DNA of 64,000 nt, taken from the NCBI GenBank assembly GCA_021773565.1, contig JAJFJZ010000025.1, positions 1 through 64,000 of the forward strand. The letters are read 5' to 3'. The notes under the pieces are model-generated. The model saw only the letters and a list, made by a program, of their open reading frames with translations, did not search any database and was not told where the DNA came from. The translations under genes and the position numbers were made by a program. This document shows positions 24,786-42,150 of this stretch, one piece after another (position 1 is the first letter of the stretch; the number at the start of each line of letters is the position of its first letter). This stretch comes from Gammaproteobacteria bacterium (GTDB taxonomy: Bacteria > Pseudomonadota > Gammaproteobacteria > Pseudomonadales > Azotimanducaceae).

Positions 24786-25892
24786 ATGGCACAAAGTTCT
24801 GGAAGCACGCCAGCAAGCGAAAAATTTTGGAGACAACTGTTGTCTATCCGCTCAAGCCATCCAGAAAATCTGATGGCACGCCACCTCACAAAAGATTATC
24901 TGGAAAGTCTCGATCAAGCTGCCCGGAACAGACTGTGGAAACTAATCAAAACCGGATACGAGAATCCCGACAGCTATATGGGCGTGTATGCCCAAAACAC
25001 CAGTGATTATGAAGAATTTAATACCTTGCTCGAACCAATGATCCGCGATCATCACGGCATTCCCTCCGAGCAGGAGATGGTCCAGCACCATGATTGGAGT
25101 TCGGTGCATTCGAAATGTGATTTGCAGGATATCGACCCGGCACTGGATGATGTTTCCATGCGAGTAAGGGTCGGGCGCAATCTTGCAGCATTGCCTCTGC
25201 CAGGGGCAATGTCAAAATCAGAGCGCGTAACTCTTGAAAGACAAACGGCTGAAGCCTTCAGCACGCTTGTGAAAGATCCAGGTTTTGGGGGGGCGTACCT
25301 GTCCTTAACACCAGGCTCAAGGCACACAATTAGCGCCGAACAATACCAGAACCGTGTCGAGCGCCATCAGATGTTCAAGGATATGCGCTTTGACCGCTAC
25401 CTGGTATCAGGTGGGTTATCTACCCACTGGCCTTACGGTCGGGGCATGTACATCTCGGGCTCGGGAGATTTTATGGTATGGGTAGGAGAAGAGGATCATC
25501 TGCGCATCATGTCCATGCGCAAGGGAGGAAACCTGTCTGGTTTGTATGCCAGGTTATACGAGGGGTTGGAGAAACTCAGCAAAGTACTTCCCGCGTTTGC
25601 CCACTCCGCACGATATGGTTATCTCACTTCCTGCCCGAGCAATCTTGGCACAGCAATGCGCGCCAGCATGCACCTTCCCATTTCTGTACGCGCACAGGAT
25701 GAAGCCACGCTAAAAGAATCCGGGCTTGCGGTTCGTGGTGTAGGTGGAGAACATACCGATGCGGGTCCCCAAGGCATTATTGATATCTCGCCGAGTGCTC
25801 GCCTGGGTGTTACAGAGAGCGAAATTATGCAGCGCTTGTTTAATGGCACCGCCGCACTTTGGGCATCGAGAAAAAAGACCTTGAATCATTAA
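24786..25892 (+). CDS. Phosphagen kinase (ATP:guanido phosphotransferase) family protein
   Basis: 368 residues, the normal length of a full two-domain arginine or creatine kinase. It is not the shorter bacterial McsB protein-arginine kinase type, since the small N-terminal substrate domain is present (YMGVYAQNTSDYEEF and LLEPMIRDHHG). Catalytic landmarks: Arg126/Arg128 in SMRVRVGRNL, GEEDHLRIMSM at 234-244 with Glu235/Arg240, reactive Cys283 in CPSNLGT, Arg292 in AMRASMHLP, and Arg317/Glu322 in RGVGGEHTD, followed by DISPSARLGVTE. Position 320 is Gly where animal arginine kinase has Arg. The family transfers phosphate between ATP and a guanidino compound as an energy buffer. The substrate is not certain. 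Bacterial members are known but scattered. Confidence 0.93.
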   Translation: MAQSSGSTPASEKFWRQLLSIRSSHPENLMARHLTKDYLESLDQAARNRLWKLIKTGYENPDSYMGVYAQNTSDYEEFNTLLEPMIRDHHGIPSEQEMVQHHDWSSVHSKCDLQDIDPALDDVSMRVRVGRNLAALPLPGAMSKSERVTLERQTAEAFSTLVKDPGFGGAYLSLTPGSRHTISAEQYQNRVERHQMFKDMRFDRYLVSGGLSTHWPYGRGMYISGSGDFMVWVGEEDHLRIMSMRKGGNLSGLYARLYEGLEKLSKVLPAFAHSARYGYLTSCPSNLGTAMRASMHLPISVRAQDEATLKESGLAVRGVGGEHTDAGPQGIIDISPSARLGVTESEIMQRLFNGTAALWASRKKTLNH

Positions 25893-35471: not shown

Positions 35472-35744
35472 ATGCCAACACGACGCCTGGACCCAAAAGA
35501 CCTGTTGCACATGCAAACCGAGCGGGTATTTCGCTCGGACAACGAGTGGTTTTTTTGTACCAGGGAAGGAATTGGTGTTGGCCCCTACGCCAGCGAGGAA
35601 ATGGCCCGTTTTCGTGGCAAGGAACTTGCCAGGCGCTTATCTGCCCTGAGTGACAAGCAAGAAATCACGGCATGCATCCGCAACTTCGTTTTTGAGACCT
35701 CCGGTCTCGTTGAAATTTCTACTCTTAAACGCCAGTCCATCTAG
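35472..35744 (+). CDS. DUF6316-like small protein
   Basis: About 90 residues from ATG 35472; ATG 35511 and TTG 35418 are alternatives and none has a good ribosome site. The central pattern VFRSDNEWFFCTREGIGVGPY followed by ASEEMARFRGKELARRL resembles the short DUF6316-type proteins of gammaproteobacteria, in which an aromatic strand pair ends in a GP[YF] turn. It is predicted cytosolic and of unknown function. Confidence 0.65.
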   Translation: MPTRRLDPKDLLHMQTERVFRSDNEWFFCTREGIGVGPYASEEMARFRGKELARRLSALSDKQEITACIRNFVFETSGLVEISTLKRQSI

Positions 35745-35838
35745 GTAGTAATACCCTCGTTTTTGGAAACGTGCGTTCCACCAGGAAATCGCTTACAGTC
35801 CCTAAACAAGGAACAAGAAGACATTTCAGGGGATAGCT

Positions 35839-37143
35839 TTGAGCGAAACTTCCGGGACTGGTAGTCCGTTGGTTGAAGAACATTTCAGTGATCAGGAAAA
35901 GTACTACACGCTGGTAATTCTCACCTTTGTTTACATCTTCAACTTCGTTGACCGGCAAGTACTCTCCATTCTCCAGGAAGGCATCAAGGCCGACCTCGGC
36001 CTGTCAGACACTCAGCTAGGATTGCTTTCCGGATTGAGCTTTGCCCTGTTTTACGTGTCCTTTGGAATTCCGATAGCGCGTTTTGCCGATAAAAGCTCGC
36101 GTCGCAACATCGTCGCAGCCGCGATTGGCACCTGGAGCTTTATGACCGCCATGTGCGGATTGGCCCAGAACTTCTGGCATTTGCTGGGTGCCCGAATTGG
36201 CGTTGGCATTGGTGAAGCAGGTGGTAGCCCACCAGCCCACTCCATGATTTCAGATTTATTCCCTCCGGAACAGCGCGCCACCGCATTGGCATTCTACTCT
36301 ACCGGTATTAATTTTGGCGTGCTGCTGGGTTTTGTCATTGGTGGGATAGTGAACGACATCTATGGCTGGCGCCTGGTGTTTTTTATCGTCGGCATTCCCG
36401 GAATAGTAATGGCACTACTGGTACGATTTACCCTGCGTGAGCCGCCACGGGGCATGTCCGAAAACAAAGTGGTAAATGCAGAGGCTCCTCCCTTCAGGGA
36501 TGTATTTCGCCTGCTACGCTCACGAAAATCTTTTCGCCACATGTCGGTTGCCGCCGGCCTGCATGCATTTGTAGGCTATGGTGTAACCACCTGGATAGCA
36601 TCATTTCTAATTCGCACCTACGATTTGCAGGGAACTTCCGAAATTGGCATTTGGCTGGGACTGATATCAGGCACCGCCGGTGCAACCGGTACATTTTTTG
36701 GGGGTTATCTGGCCGACAAACTGGGTAAAAAGGACAAGCGCTGGTACATGTGGGTTTCCGCATGGGCAACTATCATCTCGGTGCCATTATTATTGGTAGT
36801 TTTTCTGCTCAACAACTACTACCTTGCACTGTCTATCTATCTGATACCGGCATTTTTCAGTTCAATGTATCTCGGGCCGACGCTCGCTATGACGCATGGC
36901 ATTGTCAGTTTACGCATGCGCGCATTGGCATCTGCCATTTTGTTTTTTGTACTCAACCTGATCGGGCTGGGAATGGGGCCCTTTATGACCGGATTTTTGA
37001 GTGACCAGTTAATTCCACAATTCGGGGCTGAATCACTGCGTTATGCCCTGGTGTGCCTGGTATTTGTTTATCTGTGGAGTGGCGTGCATTATCTGATAGC
37101 AGCAAAAACTCTGCGAGAAGATCTGGCCAATGCGCCAGCCTGA
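35839..37143 (+). CDS. Major facilitator superfamily transporter (Spinster-like)
   Basis: 434 residues, 12 predicted helices. The MFS loop 2-3 signature reads PIARFADKSSRRN, and after helix 4 GARIGVGIGEAGGSPPAHSMI is typical of the spinster/hexuronate-like marine MFS group. The C-terminal half repeats the motif at GGYLADKLGKKDKRW. The likely start is TTG 35839 with AGGGGA about eight bases upstream; there is no suitable ATG. It is the first gene of a same-strand run with the thioredoxin-fold protein, the UGSC selenoprotein and the PQQ dehydrogenase (gap of 66 bases to the next), so it may carry the pathway's organic substrate. The substrate is unknown. Confidence 0.88.
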   Translation: MSETSGTGSPLVEEHFSDQEKYYTLVILTFVYIFNFVDRQVLSILQEGIKADLGLSDTQLGLLSGLSFALFYVSFGIPIARFADKSSRRNIVAAAIGTWSFMTAMCGLAQNFWHLLGARIGVGIGEAGGSPPAHSMISDLFPPEQRATALAFYSTGINFGVLLGFVIGGIVNDIYGWRLVFFIVGIPGIVMALLVRFTLREPPRGMSENKVVNAEAPPFRDVFRLLRSRKSFRHMSVAAGLHAFVGYGVTTWIASFLIRTYDLQGTSEIGIWLGLISGTAGATGTFFGGYLADKLGKKDKRWYMWVSAWATIISVPLLLVVFLLNNYYLALSIYLIPAFFSSMYLGPTLAMTHGIVSLRMRALASAILFFVLNLIGLGMGPFMTGFLSDQLIPQFGAESLRYALVCLVFVYLWSGVHYLIAAKTLREDLANAPA

Positions 37144-37209
37144 GTTATACATTTAATACCGTAGGGCTTAACCGCTAACCTCAACAACCTTGGATGGACA
37201 CCGCTGTAT

Positions 37210-38793
37210 ATGAGCCAGGAATTTTTACCAGCCTTCTCGCTTGAAAATACCGCAGGCGAGCAGGTCAAATTTCCCACCAGTCGTTATACGCTTATCTGCT
37301 TTGTTAAAGAAGACTGTCCCACGTGTAAAACCGTTACGCCTATTCTGAATGCCTGTTACCTGGCTATGGCTGGTAAGGTAGACATCCATCTGATAGGCCA
37401 GACCCTGGACGGCAATCAACGCTTAATCGAGGAATTTGAGCTGGATATCCCACTGCTGGATGACAGTGCCCTGATGGTTTCCTACGCCTACGATCTGGAA
37501 ATTGTGCCTACGCTCTATTGGGTAGACAAAAAAGGCAACCAACTGCAGCGACATGAAGGCTTTTTGAAACAGGACTGGAGAAGCCTGCTCAACGAGGTAT
37601 GTGATTTTTCAGATTGTCGAATCGAAGTGCCCTGGAGCAAACTGCCTGAATGGCGTCCCGGCTGCGGATCGTTATCTGTAGACCCGCTGATTGCTGAGCG
37701 CCTGCATGCAGAGTCTGAAAACAGTCCCATGCGCGCAAGAAAGATAGAAATCGGCAGTTCGGATGATACCTTTGAATTTATGTACGATCAGGGTTTCTCG
37801 GATGGTTTGCCCCTGGTACCTCCTACACCGGAACGGGTGCTGCGCATGCTGGATGGAACACGCCGTGATCCTCAGGAAGTGATAGCAGAGGTAGCACCAA
37901 ACATGGGTAGTGCAACGATTGAAAAAATTGCCATCAATGCGGTAATGGCTGGAGCAAAACCGGAGTATCTGCCGGTAATAATTGCCGCACTGGAAGCTGC
38001 ATGCACCGATGAATTCAATATTCACGGAGTAATGGCAACTACCATGGGCGCATCTCCCGTTATGGTGGTAAATGGTCCCATCCGGGAACGCATAGGCATG
38101 AACATGAAACTTTCGGCACTGGGTCAGGGCAATCGTGCCAATGCAACCATCGGGCGTGCCTTGCGCCTTGCCGTGCGTAACATTGGTGGTGCCAGGCCGG
38201 GTGGAACCGAGCGCCCCACTCTGGGCAACCCCATGAAATACACCATGTGTTTTGCGGAATGGGAGGAGCGCAGTACCTGGGAGCCCCTGCACGTAGAGCG
38301 TGGGTATTCTCGTGATGAAAGTGTTGTGACCCTGTTCTGCATGACCAGCGGACCTGTACTGATAGTGGACCAAACCTCACGCAGTGCCGCACAATTGGCC
38401 GGTAGTATGGGCATGTGCCTGGAACATGTTTTTCATCCCAAAGCCTACATGGCCAGCGATACCTTGATAGTAGTGTGTCCCGAACATCTGGATACTCTGG
38501 CACGCGACGGGTACAGCAAAGAAGATTTACGCAACCGCATTCAGGAAATCACGCAAAAGCCCATGTCTGAACTGGTGGAAGATGAACGTTCAGGTGTAGG
38601 CATACCAGCGGAAAAATTCAGTGCTATGTCAATCGAAACACAAAATAGCAGTTTACCCAAATTCAAATCAAACAAGGATATTCACCTGGTAGTAGCGGGG
38701 TCGGACGCAGGAAAATTTTCTGGTGCCTTCCACGGTTGGGTTACAGGCCCAATGGGTTCAATATCTGTTTCAAAATTAATAGAAGAGGCCTAA
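37210..38793 (+). CDS. Thioredoxin-fold protein fused to a UGSC-partner domain
   Basis: 527 residues. Residues 1-125 form a peroxiredoxin/thioredoxin-like domain with CPTC at 36-39 (VKEDCPTCKTVTPIL) and the cis-Pro strand EIVPTLYWVD. A long second domain (about 185-520) begins FMYDQGFSDGLPLVPPTPERV and contains EKIAINAVMAGAKPEYLPVI, VMATTMGASPVMVVNGP, ARPGGTERPTLG and the ending LVVAGSDAGKFSGAF. From memory this domain occurs next to UGSC-family proteins; its reaction is not known to me. Its stop lies four bases before the UGSC selenoprotein ATG, so the two are almost certainly cotranslated. A CxxC reductant fused to this domain suggests it recycles the selenoprotein's redox centre; that is inference. 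Confidence 0.8.
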   Translation: MSQEFLPAFSLENTAGEQVKFPTSRYTLICFVKEDCPTCKTVTPILNACYLAMAGKVDIHLIGQTLDGNQRLIEEFELDIPLLDDSALMVSYAYDLEIVPTLYWVDKKGNQLQRHEGFLKQDWRSLLNEVCDFSDCRIEVPWSKLPEWRPGCGSLSVDPLIAERLHAESENSPMRARKIEIGSSDDTFEFMYDQGFSDGLPLVPPTPERVLRMLDGTRRDPQEVIAEVAPNMGSATIEKIAINAVMAGAKPEYLPVIIAALEAACTDEFNIHGVMATTMGASPVMVVNGPIRERIGMNMKLSALGQGNRANATIGRALRLAVRNIGGARPGGTERPTLGNPMKYTMCFAEWEERSTWEPLHVERGYSRDESVVTLFCMTSGPVLIVDQTSRSAAQLAGSMGMCLEHVFHPKAYMASDTLIVVCPEHLDTLARDGYSKEDLRNRIQEITQKPMSELVEDERSGVGIPAEKFSAMSIETQNSSLPKFKSNKDIHLVVAGSDAGKFSGAFHGWVTGPMGSISVSKLIEEA

Positions 38794-38797
38794 AAGC

Positions 38798-39331
38798 ATG
38801 AATATCATAATGGATCCAACCAACGAGCAAGTTCCGGTAGAGCGCAGCCTTGCCAGGCGCAATGGTAAAATTGTTGGCAAACTGGCTTTGCTGAATATTT
38901 CCAAACCCCGGGGTGAGGTATTGCTTGACAGGTTTGAAACCTTATTAGGAGAACGTCTCCCGGGCATTGAAATAAACTCCTACACAAAGCCGACCTTTGC
39001 AAAACCGGCTCCGGAGGAGCTTCGTCGTGAGATTCTCGAGAACAACGATTTTCTGATTGAAGCACTGGCCGACTGAGGCTCATGTACCACGTGCAGTTTG
39101 CATGATACGGTATGGTTTGAAATTCAGGGTATGCCTTCGGTTACCGTGGCATCAGAAGAATTTGAAGAAGCTGCAAACATACAGGCGCAGGCACTGGGGC
39201 TAAAAACCGCACGATGCGTTTACGTTAAACATCCGATACAGGATGCAAGCGATAAAGAAATGCAGGAAAAGGCAGAGAGCGTTATCGATGCTGTTGTTTC
39301 TGCATTAACCGAAAAAGAAGCAAGTACCTAA
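38798..39331 (+). CDS. UGSC-family selenoprotein (selenocysteine at in-frame TGA)
   Basis: Read as one 177-residue protein. The first 92 codons (38798-39073) end in EALAD, then TGA at 39074-39076, then GSCTTCSLHDTVWFEIQG continues in the same frame to the TAA at 39329-39331. The TGA falls exactly at the U of the U-G-S-C-x-x-C-S-x-H-D family motif, so it should encode selenocysteine 93, with Cys96 and Cys99 as partners. Both halves match the family: a LALLNISKPRGEVLLD start and IPTVT-like strand MPSVTVASEEFEEAANIQAQ with an ending KHPI. A SECIS-like hairpin lies 19 bases after the TGA. Without readthrough the first part would stop before the redox motif. A TTG at 39098 would be the only start of the second ORF, with no ribosome site. 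Selenocysteine machinery is not in this window. Confidence 0.88.
39074..39110 (+). promoter_or_regulatory. Selenocysteine codon and bacterial SECIS-like hairpin
   Basis: UGA at 39074-39076 is followed after 19 bases by a hairpin: CGTGCA (39090-39095), loop GTT (39096-39098), TGCATG (39099-39104), six pairs including one G-U. The E. coli fdhF SECIS has a very similar top (UGCA stem around a loop starting GG, about 18 bases after UGA). Bacterial SelB recognises loops beginning GG or GU, so GTT fits. Bases 39086-39088 and 39109-39111 might extend the stem. The structure lies inside the coding region, as bacterial SECIS elements must. Confidence 0.75.
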
Positions 39332-39346
39332 TTGGGGGGAACATCC

Positions 39347-41527
39347 ATGTCAAGAATACTCGCAATCGTGCTGGCCGTAGCAATTGCTGTTGGCCTGTAC
39401 ATAATATCTCAGTCACCTGAACAGGCGCCAGCATCGCAAGAGAGTCCAGCCACCTCTACCGGTGCAAATACCTCTGTCGACGGTATTGGCCTGATTGACG
39501 AGGCACGCATAAATAATGCTGACAGCGAACCAGGCAACTGGCTGGCGCATGGCCGTACCTACGAAGAACAGCGTTTTTCTCCCCTCACTCAAGTGAATCA
39601 GGAAACCGTCGCCCGTCTGGGTCTGGCCTGGTACAAGGATATGGGCACCAACCGCGCGCTGGAATCTACACCTATCGTGGTAGACGGTATCATGTTTTTC
39701 TCCAGCGCCTGGAGCCGGGTATATGCAGTTGACGCCGTAAGCGGTGAGGAGTTGTGGAACTACGATCCCGAAGTACCAGGAGCGTGGGCCCGAAAAGCCT
39801 GTTGTGATGTAGTAAACAGAGGGGTTGCCGTTTACAAGGGCAAAGTATATGTGGCGAGTCTGGATGGTCGCCTTATAGCCCTCGAGGCCGCTACGGGTAA
39901 GGAAGTATGGCAAGTTAACACCCTCATTGACCGGGAACGGCCATACACCATCACTGCGGCTCCCAGAATTGCCAATGGCAAGGTTTTTATCGGCAATGGC
40001 GGCGCCGAGTTTGGTGTACGTGGATATGTCACAGCTTACGACGCAGAATCCGGCAAGCAGGTATGGCGTTTTTATACCGTACCGGGTGATCCATCACAGC
40101 CCTTTGAACACCCTGAAATGGAGCAGGCGGCAAAAACCTGGAAAGGCGGTGAATGGTGGAAAATTGGCGGCGGCGGCACTGTATGGAACTCCATTGTTTA
40201 TGACCCGGATTTTAATCAGGTATATCTGGGTGTAGGAAACGGTTCCCCGTGGACGCGGGTGATTCGCTCACCCGGTGGCGGTGATAATCTGTTTCTTTCC
40301 TCGATTATTGCCCTGGATGCTGACACTGGCGTCATGAAGTGGTACTACCAGACCACCCCTGGGGATAACTGGGACTACACGGCTGTGCAAGACATGACGC
40401 TCGCTGATATGACTGTGGATGGCGTCGAGCGAAAAGTTTTGCTACAGGCGCCAAAAAATGGTTTCTTTTATGTGCTGGACCGTTCGGATGGCAAACTGTT
40501 GCGAGCGCACAAGTATGTCGCGGCGAACTGGGCTACCCATGTTGATATGGAAACCGGGCGCCCCGTGGAAGACCCTGCACTGGAATATGTGGATAGTCCC
40601 AAATTCGTATTGCCCGGCCCTATTGGTGGGCACAATTGGCAAGCCATGGCCTTTGATGAATCCACCGGCATCGTGTACATACCTGCCCAGGAAGCACCCT
40701 TTATTTATGGCATGAACAAGGAATGGCAAAAAACCGGCTTGTACAAACATGTGCCCGGTGCCTGGAACCTTGGCCTGGATCTGGGCGGCATCGGCCAGAC
40801 GCTTCTCGCAAATATTGATGATTCTCCGCCAGCCGGTGGCATACTAAAAGCATTCAATCCACTCACCGGGGAAGACATCTGGAGTGTAAAACATGCGCAC
40901 TACTGGAATGGCGGCGTGTTGGCTACCGCAGGCGGTCTGGTGTTTCAGGGTGACGCCCTGGGTAACGTCAGCGCATACAACTCGGCCACAGGGGATGTGT
41001 TGTGGCAGTTTAATGCCTATAGCTCAATTCTTGCTCCGCCAATTACCTATCAGATCGATGGGGTACAGTATCTGTCTATTCTAACCGGCTCAGGTGGGGG
41101 CGAATTGTTCACAGGTTATGTCGACGTAATGGCGAGCACAAAATACGGCAACTATGGCAAAATGCTGGTTTTTAAACTGGATGGAAACACGGCTCTTCCT
41201 GAACCCAGCCTGCTGGATCGCAGTATTCCGGAGCAACCCGTATTAACGGCCAGCGCTGAAGACATAACACGCGGCGAGATAATCTACAACGAAACCTGTG
41301 CGGTATGCCATGGCCTGTTTGTAAACTCCAGCGCCACCATACCCGACTTACGTCTTATGAGTGAAGGCTCACACGCAGCGTTCAAAGAAATTGTCCTGGG
41401 CGGCATAAAGTCATCAGGTGGTATGGCAAGCTTTGCAGATCTGTTAGCAGAACCCGACGTAGACCGTGTGCACGCCTACATTGTAAGCGTAGCCAATGCA
41501 GATAGAGCAGCAGCGCAACAGCCTTGA
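39347..41527 (+). CDS. PQQ-dependent alcohol dehydrogenase with C-terminal cytochrome c
   Basis: 726 residues from ATG 39347, which has a GGGGGGA site eight bases upstream. A signal peptide or anchor (about 3-20, LAIVLAVAIAVGLYIIS) directs it to the periplasm. The eight-bladed propeller of quinohaemoprotein dehydrogenases begins NWLAHGRTYEEQRFSPL and contains the vicinal Cys-Cys (RKACCDVVNRG), a TTPGDNWDYTAVQD segment with the Asp/Asn near PQQ and Ca, and the tryptophan-docking repeats. A C-terminal cytochrome domain carries haem motif CAVCH and a GGMASF Met ligand. It oxidises an alcohol to an aldehyde. It lies 15 bases after the selenoprotein gene, as the last member of the operon. Confidence 0.92.
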   Translation: MSRILAIVLAVAIAVGLYIISQSPEQAPASQESPATSTGANTSVDGIGLIDEARINNADSEPGNWLAHGRTYEEQRFSPLTQVNQETVARLGLAWYKDMGTNRALESTPIVVDGIMFFSSAWSRVYAVDAVSGEELWNYDPEVPGAWARKACCDVVNRGVAVYKGKVYVASLDGRLIALEAATGKEVWQVNTLIDRERPYTITAAPRIANGKVFIGNGGAEFGVRGYVTAYDAESGKQVWRFYTVPGDPSQPFEHPEMEQAAKTWKGGEWWKIGGGGTVWNSIVYDPDFNQVYLGVGNGSPWTRVIRSPGGGDNLFLSSIIALDADTGVMKWYYQTTPGDNWDYTAVQDMTLADMTVDGVERKVLLQAPKNGFFYVLDRSDGKLLRAHKYVAANWATHVDMETGRPVEDPALEYVDSPKFVLPGPIGGHNWQAMAFDESTGIVYIPAQEAPFIYGMNKEWQKTGLYKHVPGAWNLGLDLGGIGQTLLANIDDSPPAGGILKAFNPLTGEDIWSVKHAHYWNGGVLATAGGLVFQGDALGNVSAYNSATGDVLWQFNAYSSILAPPITYQIDGVQYLSILTGSGGGELFTGYVDVMASTKYGNYGKMLVFKLDGNTALPEPSLLDRSIPEQPVLTASAEDITRGEIIYNETCAVCHGLFVNSSATIPDLRLMSEGSHAAFKEIVLGGIKSSGGMASFADLLAEPDVDRVHAYIVSVANADRAAAQQP

Positions 41528-41609
41528 GCGGCTCTTGTAAACAGCCCTGAGCGGTTTTTGTAAACAGCCTTGAGCGGTTTTGGTTAACAGCCTTAAAGAG
41601 CGGCTTTGG
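41518..41609. repeat. 23-bp tandem repeat, about 3.5 copies, between convergent genes
   Basis: Units begin at 41518, 41541, 41564 and 41587 (ACAGCCTTGAGCGG then a T-rich end and TAA). Copies 1-3 differ at a few bases and copy 4 is altered (ACAGCCTTAAAGAGCGG). Copy 1 contains the stop of the PQQ dehydrogenase; copy 4 contains the stop of the opposite gene. There are no spacers, so it is not a CRISPR. The units might have arisen by duplication of the gene end; T-rich runs may help end transcription. Confidence 0.8.
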
Positions 41610-42150
41610 GTGGAAGATCAGGTGGCGGAACTTCACGAAAAACGATACTAAAATCGTTTCCAACCGAAGTTTCCGAACCTGATTCGCCAGTGATTGCTGC
41701 CCGCTGCTGCTCTTCTGTTATTTCCTGTTCCACAATTTGTTGTCGGCTGCGCTTGCCGTTCAGGCGTTTACCTTCCTGCAGTTGAGTGAGCGCCGCTTCA
41801 ACATTCTCTGCCAGTGCTTCACTGTAGGGCAAACGGTAAGCACGCGGCACACCTGTTGTAACCTGGACGTCGTTTTGTAACGCACGCAACCAGATGTAGA
41901 TCGCACCTTCGCCCCCTGTGCGCTTGTCCGGCTCATCAATACTGACAAACAAGAGTCTAAAGTTCCGGGGTATCTCTTCGCTGCTGGGTAAACCCGACAG
42001 GGAGCGCAAACCCTGGTAACTTGCAAAATAGAAAAGGCTAACCAATACGATGGCTGCAGCTTTTAGCCAGACACTCCATCTGCTGGCCAAATTCAGGCTG
42101 AGCAATAATGCCCCAATGGCTACGTAGGCGAGCGTGAGCAAAATTATCAC
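41593..42150 (-). CDS. Membrane protein of the acylase/proton-channel operon, unknown
   Basis: 185 residues. Two N-terminal membrane helices (about 2-17 and 28-45) are followed by a soluble domain including NFRLLFVSIDEPDKRTGGEGAIYIWLR, which has a strand-turn feel, and a charged helix (QLQEGKRLNGKRSRQQIVEQEI). The C-terminus (VPPPDLPPKAAL) is Pro-rich. No family is recognised. It begins three bases after the ExbD-like gene ends, the last gene of a four-gene minus-strand operon, so it is likely a component of the same membrane assembly. Confidence 0.7.
   Translation of the reverse strand: MIILLTLAYVAIGALLLSLNLASRWSVWLKAAAIVLVSLFYFASYQGLRSLSGLPSSEEIPRNFRLLFVSIDEPDKRTGGEGAIYIWLRALQNDVQVTTGVPRAYRLPYSEALAENVEAALTQLQEGKRLNGKRSRQQIVEQEITEEQQRAAITGESGSETSVGNDFSIVFREVPPPDLPPKAAL

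Follow-up and report, generated by a model that had tools for sequence, protein, structure and literature searches.

The window, by which we mean the whole stretch of 64,000 nucleotides that was analysed, carries on its plus strand a selenoprotein gene of the UGSC family together with a longer gene immediately upstream, here called the partner. The two are flanked by an MFS transporter and a PQQ-dependent dehydrogenase (Table 1).

Table 1. Coordinates of the UGSC gene, its partner and their neighbours in the window
Feature	Position	Strand	Remarks
MFS transporter	35839..37143	+	66 nt upstream of the partner
Partner gene	37210..38793	+	527 aa; the UGSC start lies 4 nt beyond the end of its stop
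Partner, TlpA/ResA-like thioredoxin domain with CPTC motif	37210..37614	+	no signal peptide seen by eye
Partner, C-terminal domain	37768..38790	+	about 340 aa; one invariant Cys (residue 347)
GAAGAGG, ribosome-site-like	38782..38788	+	9 nt 5' of the UGSC ATG
UGSC-family selenoprotein gene	38798..39331	+	177 residues; one UGA read through, then terminal stop
Sec codon TGA (residue 93, U of the UGSC motif)	39074..39076	+	
UGA and SECIS-type hairpin	39074..39118	+	upper stem of 6 bp with an apical GTT loop, 19 nt from the UGA; agrees with the published bSECIS model
Cys96 codon (C of UxxC)	39083..39085	+	invariant in a 21-row family alignment; presumed resolving Cys
PQQ-dependent alcohol-type dehydrogenase with cytochrome c domain	39347..41527	+	directly downstream of UGSC

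A reading made from the sequence only had proposed a single frame across one in-frame TGA. Translation with TGA read as selenocysteine (Sec, U) bore this out: the sole TGA falls at residue 93, in the context ...EALADUGSCTTCSLHD.... As that reading had also stated, a standard ORF list splits the gene into ORFs of 92 and 77 aa, and it stays hidden from gene callers for which UGA is always a stop. Its further statement that a TTG is the only start after the TGA holds in part: a TTG does come first (39098), but the ATG at 39131, in the same frame, is a second possible start.

Profile searches confirmed that Sec sits on the U of the UGSC motif and that both halves belong to the same family. The read-through protein scores 159 bits against NF041046 (cut-off 125, model positions 4-147 of 147) and 154.6 bits against PF24696 (cut-off 25, positions 2-171 of 172), while the 92-aa half and the 84 codons 3' of the TGA reach 51.5 and 85.8 bits separately with NF041046. 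With a match over nearly the whole length and the same Sec motif, the protein is a member of this family, the UGSC-containing protein of PMC2398784; it is also the sole PF24696 match in the window's genome. Ratios of nonsynonymous to synonymous differences (pN/pS) against six distinct relatives were 0.20-0.29 before and 0.13-0.27 after the UGA; these ratios, from a comparison of nine rows of which three are repeats of the same gene, are crude because synonymous sites are near saturation (pS 0.58-1.04).

Selenocysteine insertion at the internal UGA

The window's genome is 98.4% complete in 32 contigs and holds all four genes of the selenium machinery. On one contig lie selA (546 bits), selB (391 bits) and, directly after them, tRNA-Sec (72.8 bits; called SeC(tca) by ARAGORN), while selD (365 bits) was found at another locus (L060, contig C12, 295182-296105). 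The sequence-only reading had named the absence of selB and tRNA-Sec as the finding that would speak against it; both are present and adjacent, so that objection falls. This SelD, too, is a selenoprotein: its frame crosses a TGA within the motif TAGUAAK.

The distribution of selB was surveyed in 57 genomes, namely 53 of a set of 58 (the window's genome and relatives) plus G193, G197, G331 and G365; the five of the set left out (G047, G052, G053, G054 and G057) are all without UGSC. A selB over the cut-off was found in 33 of the 35 genomes with a UGA-containing UGSC gene, in neither of the two with the Cys form only, and in three of the 20 without UGSC. The selB score of G365 lies near the cut-off (249 vs 242 bits). 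Fisher's test for 33/35 vs 3/22 gives p 4e-10, which is only indicative since the species are related. The two UGA-UGSC genomes without selB over the cut-off, G017 and G019, are each 91% complete.

A scan of a species-genome collection yielded 418 relatives, the best 80 of which were made into named loci. All 80 are metagenome-assembled genomes, most of them Gammaproteobacteria or Pseudomonadales, with a few Alphaproteobacteria, Sphingomonadales or Proteobacteria and one Thermoanaerobaculia. TGA occupies the Sec codon in 80/80 of these best 80 of 418, which, being the most similar relatives, are no sample of the whole UGSC family. Among the 58 genomes, 33 hold the family, in 62 rows of which 57 contain one TGA and five none. 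At the DNA level the TGA is followed by GSC in 55 of the 57; of the two exceptions, G029:C350 is a fragment at the end of a contig and G005:C436 a broken copy. The five TGA-free rows comprise two full Ser copies, two partial ones ending before the site and one below the cut-off. Across 398 genomes of the phylum the family was present in five, the window's own counted. Two of these five, G197 and G331, carry TGC (Cys) at the Sec site, and the TGA counted in the G331 row lies elsewhere.

Two kinds of variant deserve mention. The two full Ser copies, L058 and L178, have a disturbed motif (GDSESC, GDSECS) and no partner gene; they may form a branch that has taken on another role, or be decaying. 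At L180 (4808-5080, minus strand), in a genome with no above-cut-off selB, a Cys-form UGSC gene has a TGA where relatives have Trp (EKF-TGA-PAG), which may be a mutation, a sequencing error or a UGA read otherwise.

According to excerpts of PMC13188914, the bacterial SECIS (bSECIS) model calls for a stem of 4-16 bp, a loop of 3-9 nt with G in the first two positions, a spacing of 16-37 nt and a minimum free energy of at most -7.5. With 14 codons after the UGA, the window's sequence fits it (6 bp, loop GTT, 19 nt, -10.3), and so do 45 of the 50 distinct sequences of the family, where synonymous recoding of the same protein with the family's codon usage leads one to expect 6.9; the 50 are related to each other and not independent. 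At other lengths the figures are 42 vs 6.2 (13 codons) and 44 vs 9.3 (16 codons), and a looser hairpin criterion gives 50/50 vs 17.2 expected. In this looser run the mean folding-energy z was -1.08 after the UGA vs -0.12 to -0.30 at six other places in the gene. For the window taken singly, 14 of 100 synonymous recodings also fit the model, the free energy of the hairpin is ordinary against dinucleotide shuffles (z -0.19), and an Rfam search returned no SECIS match.

Were the TGA a true stop, the locus would hold a pseudogene or two separate small proteins. The start codons at 39098 and 39131 would allow the second of these. Against both stand the retention of the TGA in all of the best 80 of 418 relatives, purifying selection on both sides of it, the fit to the SECIS model, the presence of the Sec machinery, and the Cys that two genomes lacking an above-cut-off selB have in this column, so that we give a true stop practically no credence. 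It is well supported that 38798-39331 encodes a genuine selenoprotein of the known UGSC family, made by SelB-dependent reading of the internal UGA as Sec, and the 177-residue product is presumably cytoplasmic.

UGSC is listed among the commonest selenoprotein families of aquatic metagenomes, with 255 sequences in a table of PMC2398784. The sequence-only reading placed it in marine metagenomes, and it was indeed noted there, but the same paper, as excerpted, reports it as more abundant in nonmarine samples. The reading also called its reaction unknown, in agreement with the passages on UGSC in the 2026 review PMC13188914; the available parts of PMC2398784, PMC13188914, PMC9312934 and PMC7539508 give no reaction for it.

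The partner gene and its neighbourhood

What goes beyond the earlier reading is a near-obligate partner gene and a similarity to GrdB. The partner's C-terminal domain adjoins UGSC in 19 of an initial 20 neighbourhoods, and in all 80 loci from the best 80 of 418 relatives the partner lies upstream on the same strand, within 300 nt in 79. A genome-wide search of the 58 genomes found 61 UGSC places and 59 partner places: the partner is at most 1.5 kb away at 57 of the 61, and UGSC stands beside 58 of the 59. The sole unpaired partner lies only 69 nt short of a contig end. The four partnerless UGSC places are the two Ser copies, a broken copy and a sub-threshold match, so the copies in which Sec was lost to Ser are also without partner. 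At one locus (L048) partner and UGSC are fused into a single 545-residue protein whose frame contains no further stop. A second apparent fusion, at L056, was ruled out: there two genes in different frames overlap by 4 nt.

Pairwise distances of UGSC and partner correlate with r 0.96 over 32 of 35 dereplicated loci, a value uncorrected for species descent. Genomes hold up to five UGSC and six partner places, the copies being diverged, and in part of the family the C-terminal domain occurs without fusion to a thioredoxin (Trx) domain. L182 (3614-4558 and 2625-3545) and G020:C141 show two tandem partner copies beside one UGSC gene, as if the partner formed a heterodimer there.

The C-terminal domain matched no known family significantly. 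With 25 members as queries, the best values were E 0.06 in Pfam and E 0.04 in NCBIfam, each in one of the 25, and the best PDB hit (E 0.04) was a designed protein. The predicted structure of the partner has a pLDDT of 85.5 and a pTM of 0.65, and the matches listed for it by Foldseek and VIA-align cover the Trx domain. Excerpts of PMC2398784 report a conserved domain, 'Unknown_1', fused to UGSC proteins, which is presumably the same as the C-terminal domain of the partner. Linkage and fusion strongly support the view that the UGSC protein and its partner are the halves of one two-component enzyme, in which they would interact physically.

The outer neighbours are less constant. A gene similar to the MFS transporter occurs near UGSC in one of the 80 named loci and one of 20 other relatives, and the PQQ dehydrogenase in the locus of a relative of the same genus and in one of the 80 (L092); not being widely conserved, both were set aside as clues. 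Of the 80 loci, 45 span at least 12 kb; over these, from which the families tested were themselves picked, TauD dioxygenases were found near UGSC in 16/45 vs 1/20 random loci, RraA-like proteins in 14/45 vs 0/20 and one type of MFS transporter in 14/45 vs 0/20, while acyl-CoA dehydrogenases (18/45 vs 6/20) and SDRs (9/45 vs 3/20) were not clearly enriched. A scan of 35600-41800 for promoters and terminators gave fewer sites than shuffled sequence. Elsewhere in the window, at 24786-25892, lies a gene for an ATP:guanido phosphotransferase of the arginine/creatine kinase family (PF00217, 153.8 bits), a family uncommon in bacteria.

Predicted fold and probable kinship with GrdB

The AlphaFold2 model of the UGSC protein (pLDDT 89.8, pTM 0.87) consists of alternating strands and helices, with Sec93, modelled as Cys, between strand 85-91 and helix 94-109. 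Its solved structural neighbours are flavodoxin-like reductases, lumazine synthases and receiver domains, among which no relative stands out: the best has Z 11.0 (rmsd 3.6, 134 aligned), a de novo protein follows at 10.8, and unrelated chains are close behind. A viral structure library returned common alpha/beta folds only, and a PDB sequence search with the UGSC profile gave four weak dehydrogenase matches (E 0.29 or worse). The predicted fold looks flavodoxin/CheY-like rather than thioredoxin-like.

In 2008 UGSC was thought likely to be Trx-like (PMC2398784, in excerpts), and a generic thioredoxin-like selenol oxidoreductase that reduces peroxides or disulfides, with the partner as a merely associated redox protein, would account for the UxxC motif and for the Trx domain in the partner as well as for that suggestion. 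We consider this unlikely: the predicted fold looks to be of another kind, no Trx is among the structural matches listed for the model (an absence that carries no weight on its own), and the UGSC protein itself has no thioredoxin-family match in Pfam or NCBIfam. Nor would such an oxidoreductase explain why UGSC and a large unnamed domain are linked almost one to one, the several diverged copies per genome or the match to GrdB.

The evidence for that match comes from a protein at L063, a 445-aa member of TIGR01918 (556 bits) whose frame crosses a TGA to give UGTCTRC and whose gene stands beside a GrdE-type gene (PF09338). Aligned with full-length, untrimmed L063, the UGSC profile gave an hhalign probability of 92-94% (E 1e-7 to 7e-7, a value that applies to one comparison) and placed Sec on Sec and UGSCTTC on UGTCTRC, with the UxxCxxC, GxP and HP(I/L) positions in register. 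The score of 49-51 compares with maxima of 25.1 for 150 shuffles of L063 and 26.4 for 298 other ORFs of the loci (a set of 300 minus two that were UGSC themselves). Independently of this, L063 matches NF041046 at E 6e-5 over residues 352-413, Sec included, with 23 bits (cut-off 125).

Against 29 mostly more diverged GRDB-like selenoproteins, trimmed to the Sec domain by our own choice, the probability was 72% and the score 35.6, the maximum of 60 column shuffles being 21.2; with the motif masked it was 53%. A first hhalign run against the long untrimmed GRDB-like sequences paired the wrong regions (1.7%), and a larger UGSC set against the untrimmed sequences gave 55%. The window's protein itself has no match to TIGR01917, TIGR01918 or TIGR04483 at E <= 10 and their curated cut-offs were not reached, and among 21 UGSC members one matches TIGR01917 (E 0.0011). 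As no GrdB model was reached, we do not file UGSC as GrdB. One large UGSC subgroup (HUGSCTTG) is missing the last Cys of UxxCxxC. Of the 398 phylum genomes eight matched PF07355, in each case over no more than the C-terminal part of the model, and a sequence search of GrdB against solved structures found no relative (best E 0.17).

The alignments support placing the UGSC protein as a stand-alone, distant relative of the Sec domain of GrdB, protein B of glycine, sarcosine and D-proline reductases. It shares with GrdB (TIGR01918, PF07355; PrdB, TIGR04483) a UxxCxxC motif with Sec first, GxP and HP(I/L), but the N-terminal part of GrdB, about 290 residues, is absent, and where GrdB has a GrdE/PrdA subunit alongside, UGSC stands beside another kind of partner. 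The genes up- and downstream of UGSC matched no GrdE/PrdA-type family, and the partner domain compared with a single GrdE-type protein gave a probability of 0.1%. The available parts of the literature that holds both UGSC and GrdB draw no connection between the two.

The window's genome also carries a second selenoprotein gene, GRDB-like (VPV-U-PVCHQ), at L059 (contig C8, 17670-18059 onwards). Its homologues continue in frame through a UGA at the same site in 30/30 loci (29 with UPx, and L063 with UGTC), and the Sec of these proteins lies immediately past the end of the Pfam GRDB model.

A proposed two-component selenol reductase and its known counterparts

UGSC is most likely one half of a two-component selenol reductase. 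By analogy with glycine reductase B, which binds the substrate and releases ammonia (PMC13188914, in excerpts), and with fluoroacetate reductase, in which Sec of a GrdB homologue was proposed to attack the C-F bond (excerpts of PMC10838667), a mechanism can be suggested. The C-terminal domain of the partner would bind a small organic substrate, Sec93 would attack an electron-poor carbon or heteroatom, and Cys96 would resolve the adduct as a selenenylsulfide with release of the reduced product. The Se-S bond might then be re-reduced by the CPTC thioredoxin domain of the partner, or by free thioredoxin in lineages without the fusion. The role would be a substrate-specific reductive step in catabolism; the diverged copies and some of the catabolic neighbours fit this, and several diverged copies per genome suggest different substrates.

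The roles could also be reversed, with UGSC as a GrdA-like selenol carrier of electrons or groups that feeds a partner holding the catalytic site. Its small size is in keeping with this, as are the invariant Cys and many further invariant residues of the partner, and GrdA works with thioredoxin in glycine reductase (excerpts of PMC13188914). The similarity found is nevertheless to GrdB, the substrate-binding subunit, and no match to the GrdA family was obtained, so that we rate a carrier role as rather unlikely. Returning to the selenol reductase, the account as a whole, that of a SelB-dependent selenoprotein related to the GrdB Sec domain that joins with its partner in a two-component enzyme of Sec-based reductive chemistry, seems to us slightly better than an even bet. 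With the partner and the GrdB-type Sec domain, UGSC would no longer be an orphan redox protein but part of a defined enzyme of two genes, open to expression and assay. Should the proposed chemistry hold, aquatic Pseudomonadota would share the Sec-dependent reductive cleavage for which anaerobic fermenters are known.

More tentatively, and with somewhat less than even confidence, UGSC and its partner may represent a two-component branch of the glycine/proline-reductase superfamily that has gone unrecognised, in aquatic Pseudomonadota that presumably do not live by Stickland fermentation. Such a branch would combine a Sec subunit of half the size with a new substrate-binding domain and, in the window's lineage, a built-in thioredoxin, and its several copies per genome would have diversified to cleave C-N, C-S, C-O or C-halogen bonds in different compounds.

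A close parallel is the fluoroacetate reductase FarB/FarE, as described in excerpts of PMC10838667, which likewise has a GrdB-type protein in a two-subunit complex, a proposed attack of Sec on an electron-poor carbon and an MFS transporter in the operon. FarB/FarE, however, pairs GrdB and GrdE homologues in a bacterium of the Synergistota, whereas the UGSC protein is less than half the size, stands beside a different partner and belongs to a gammaproteobacterial lineage.
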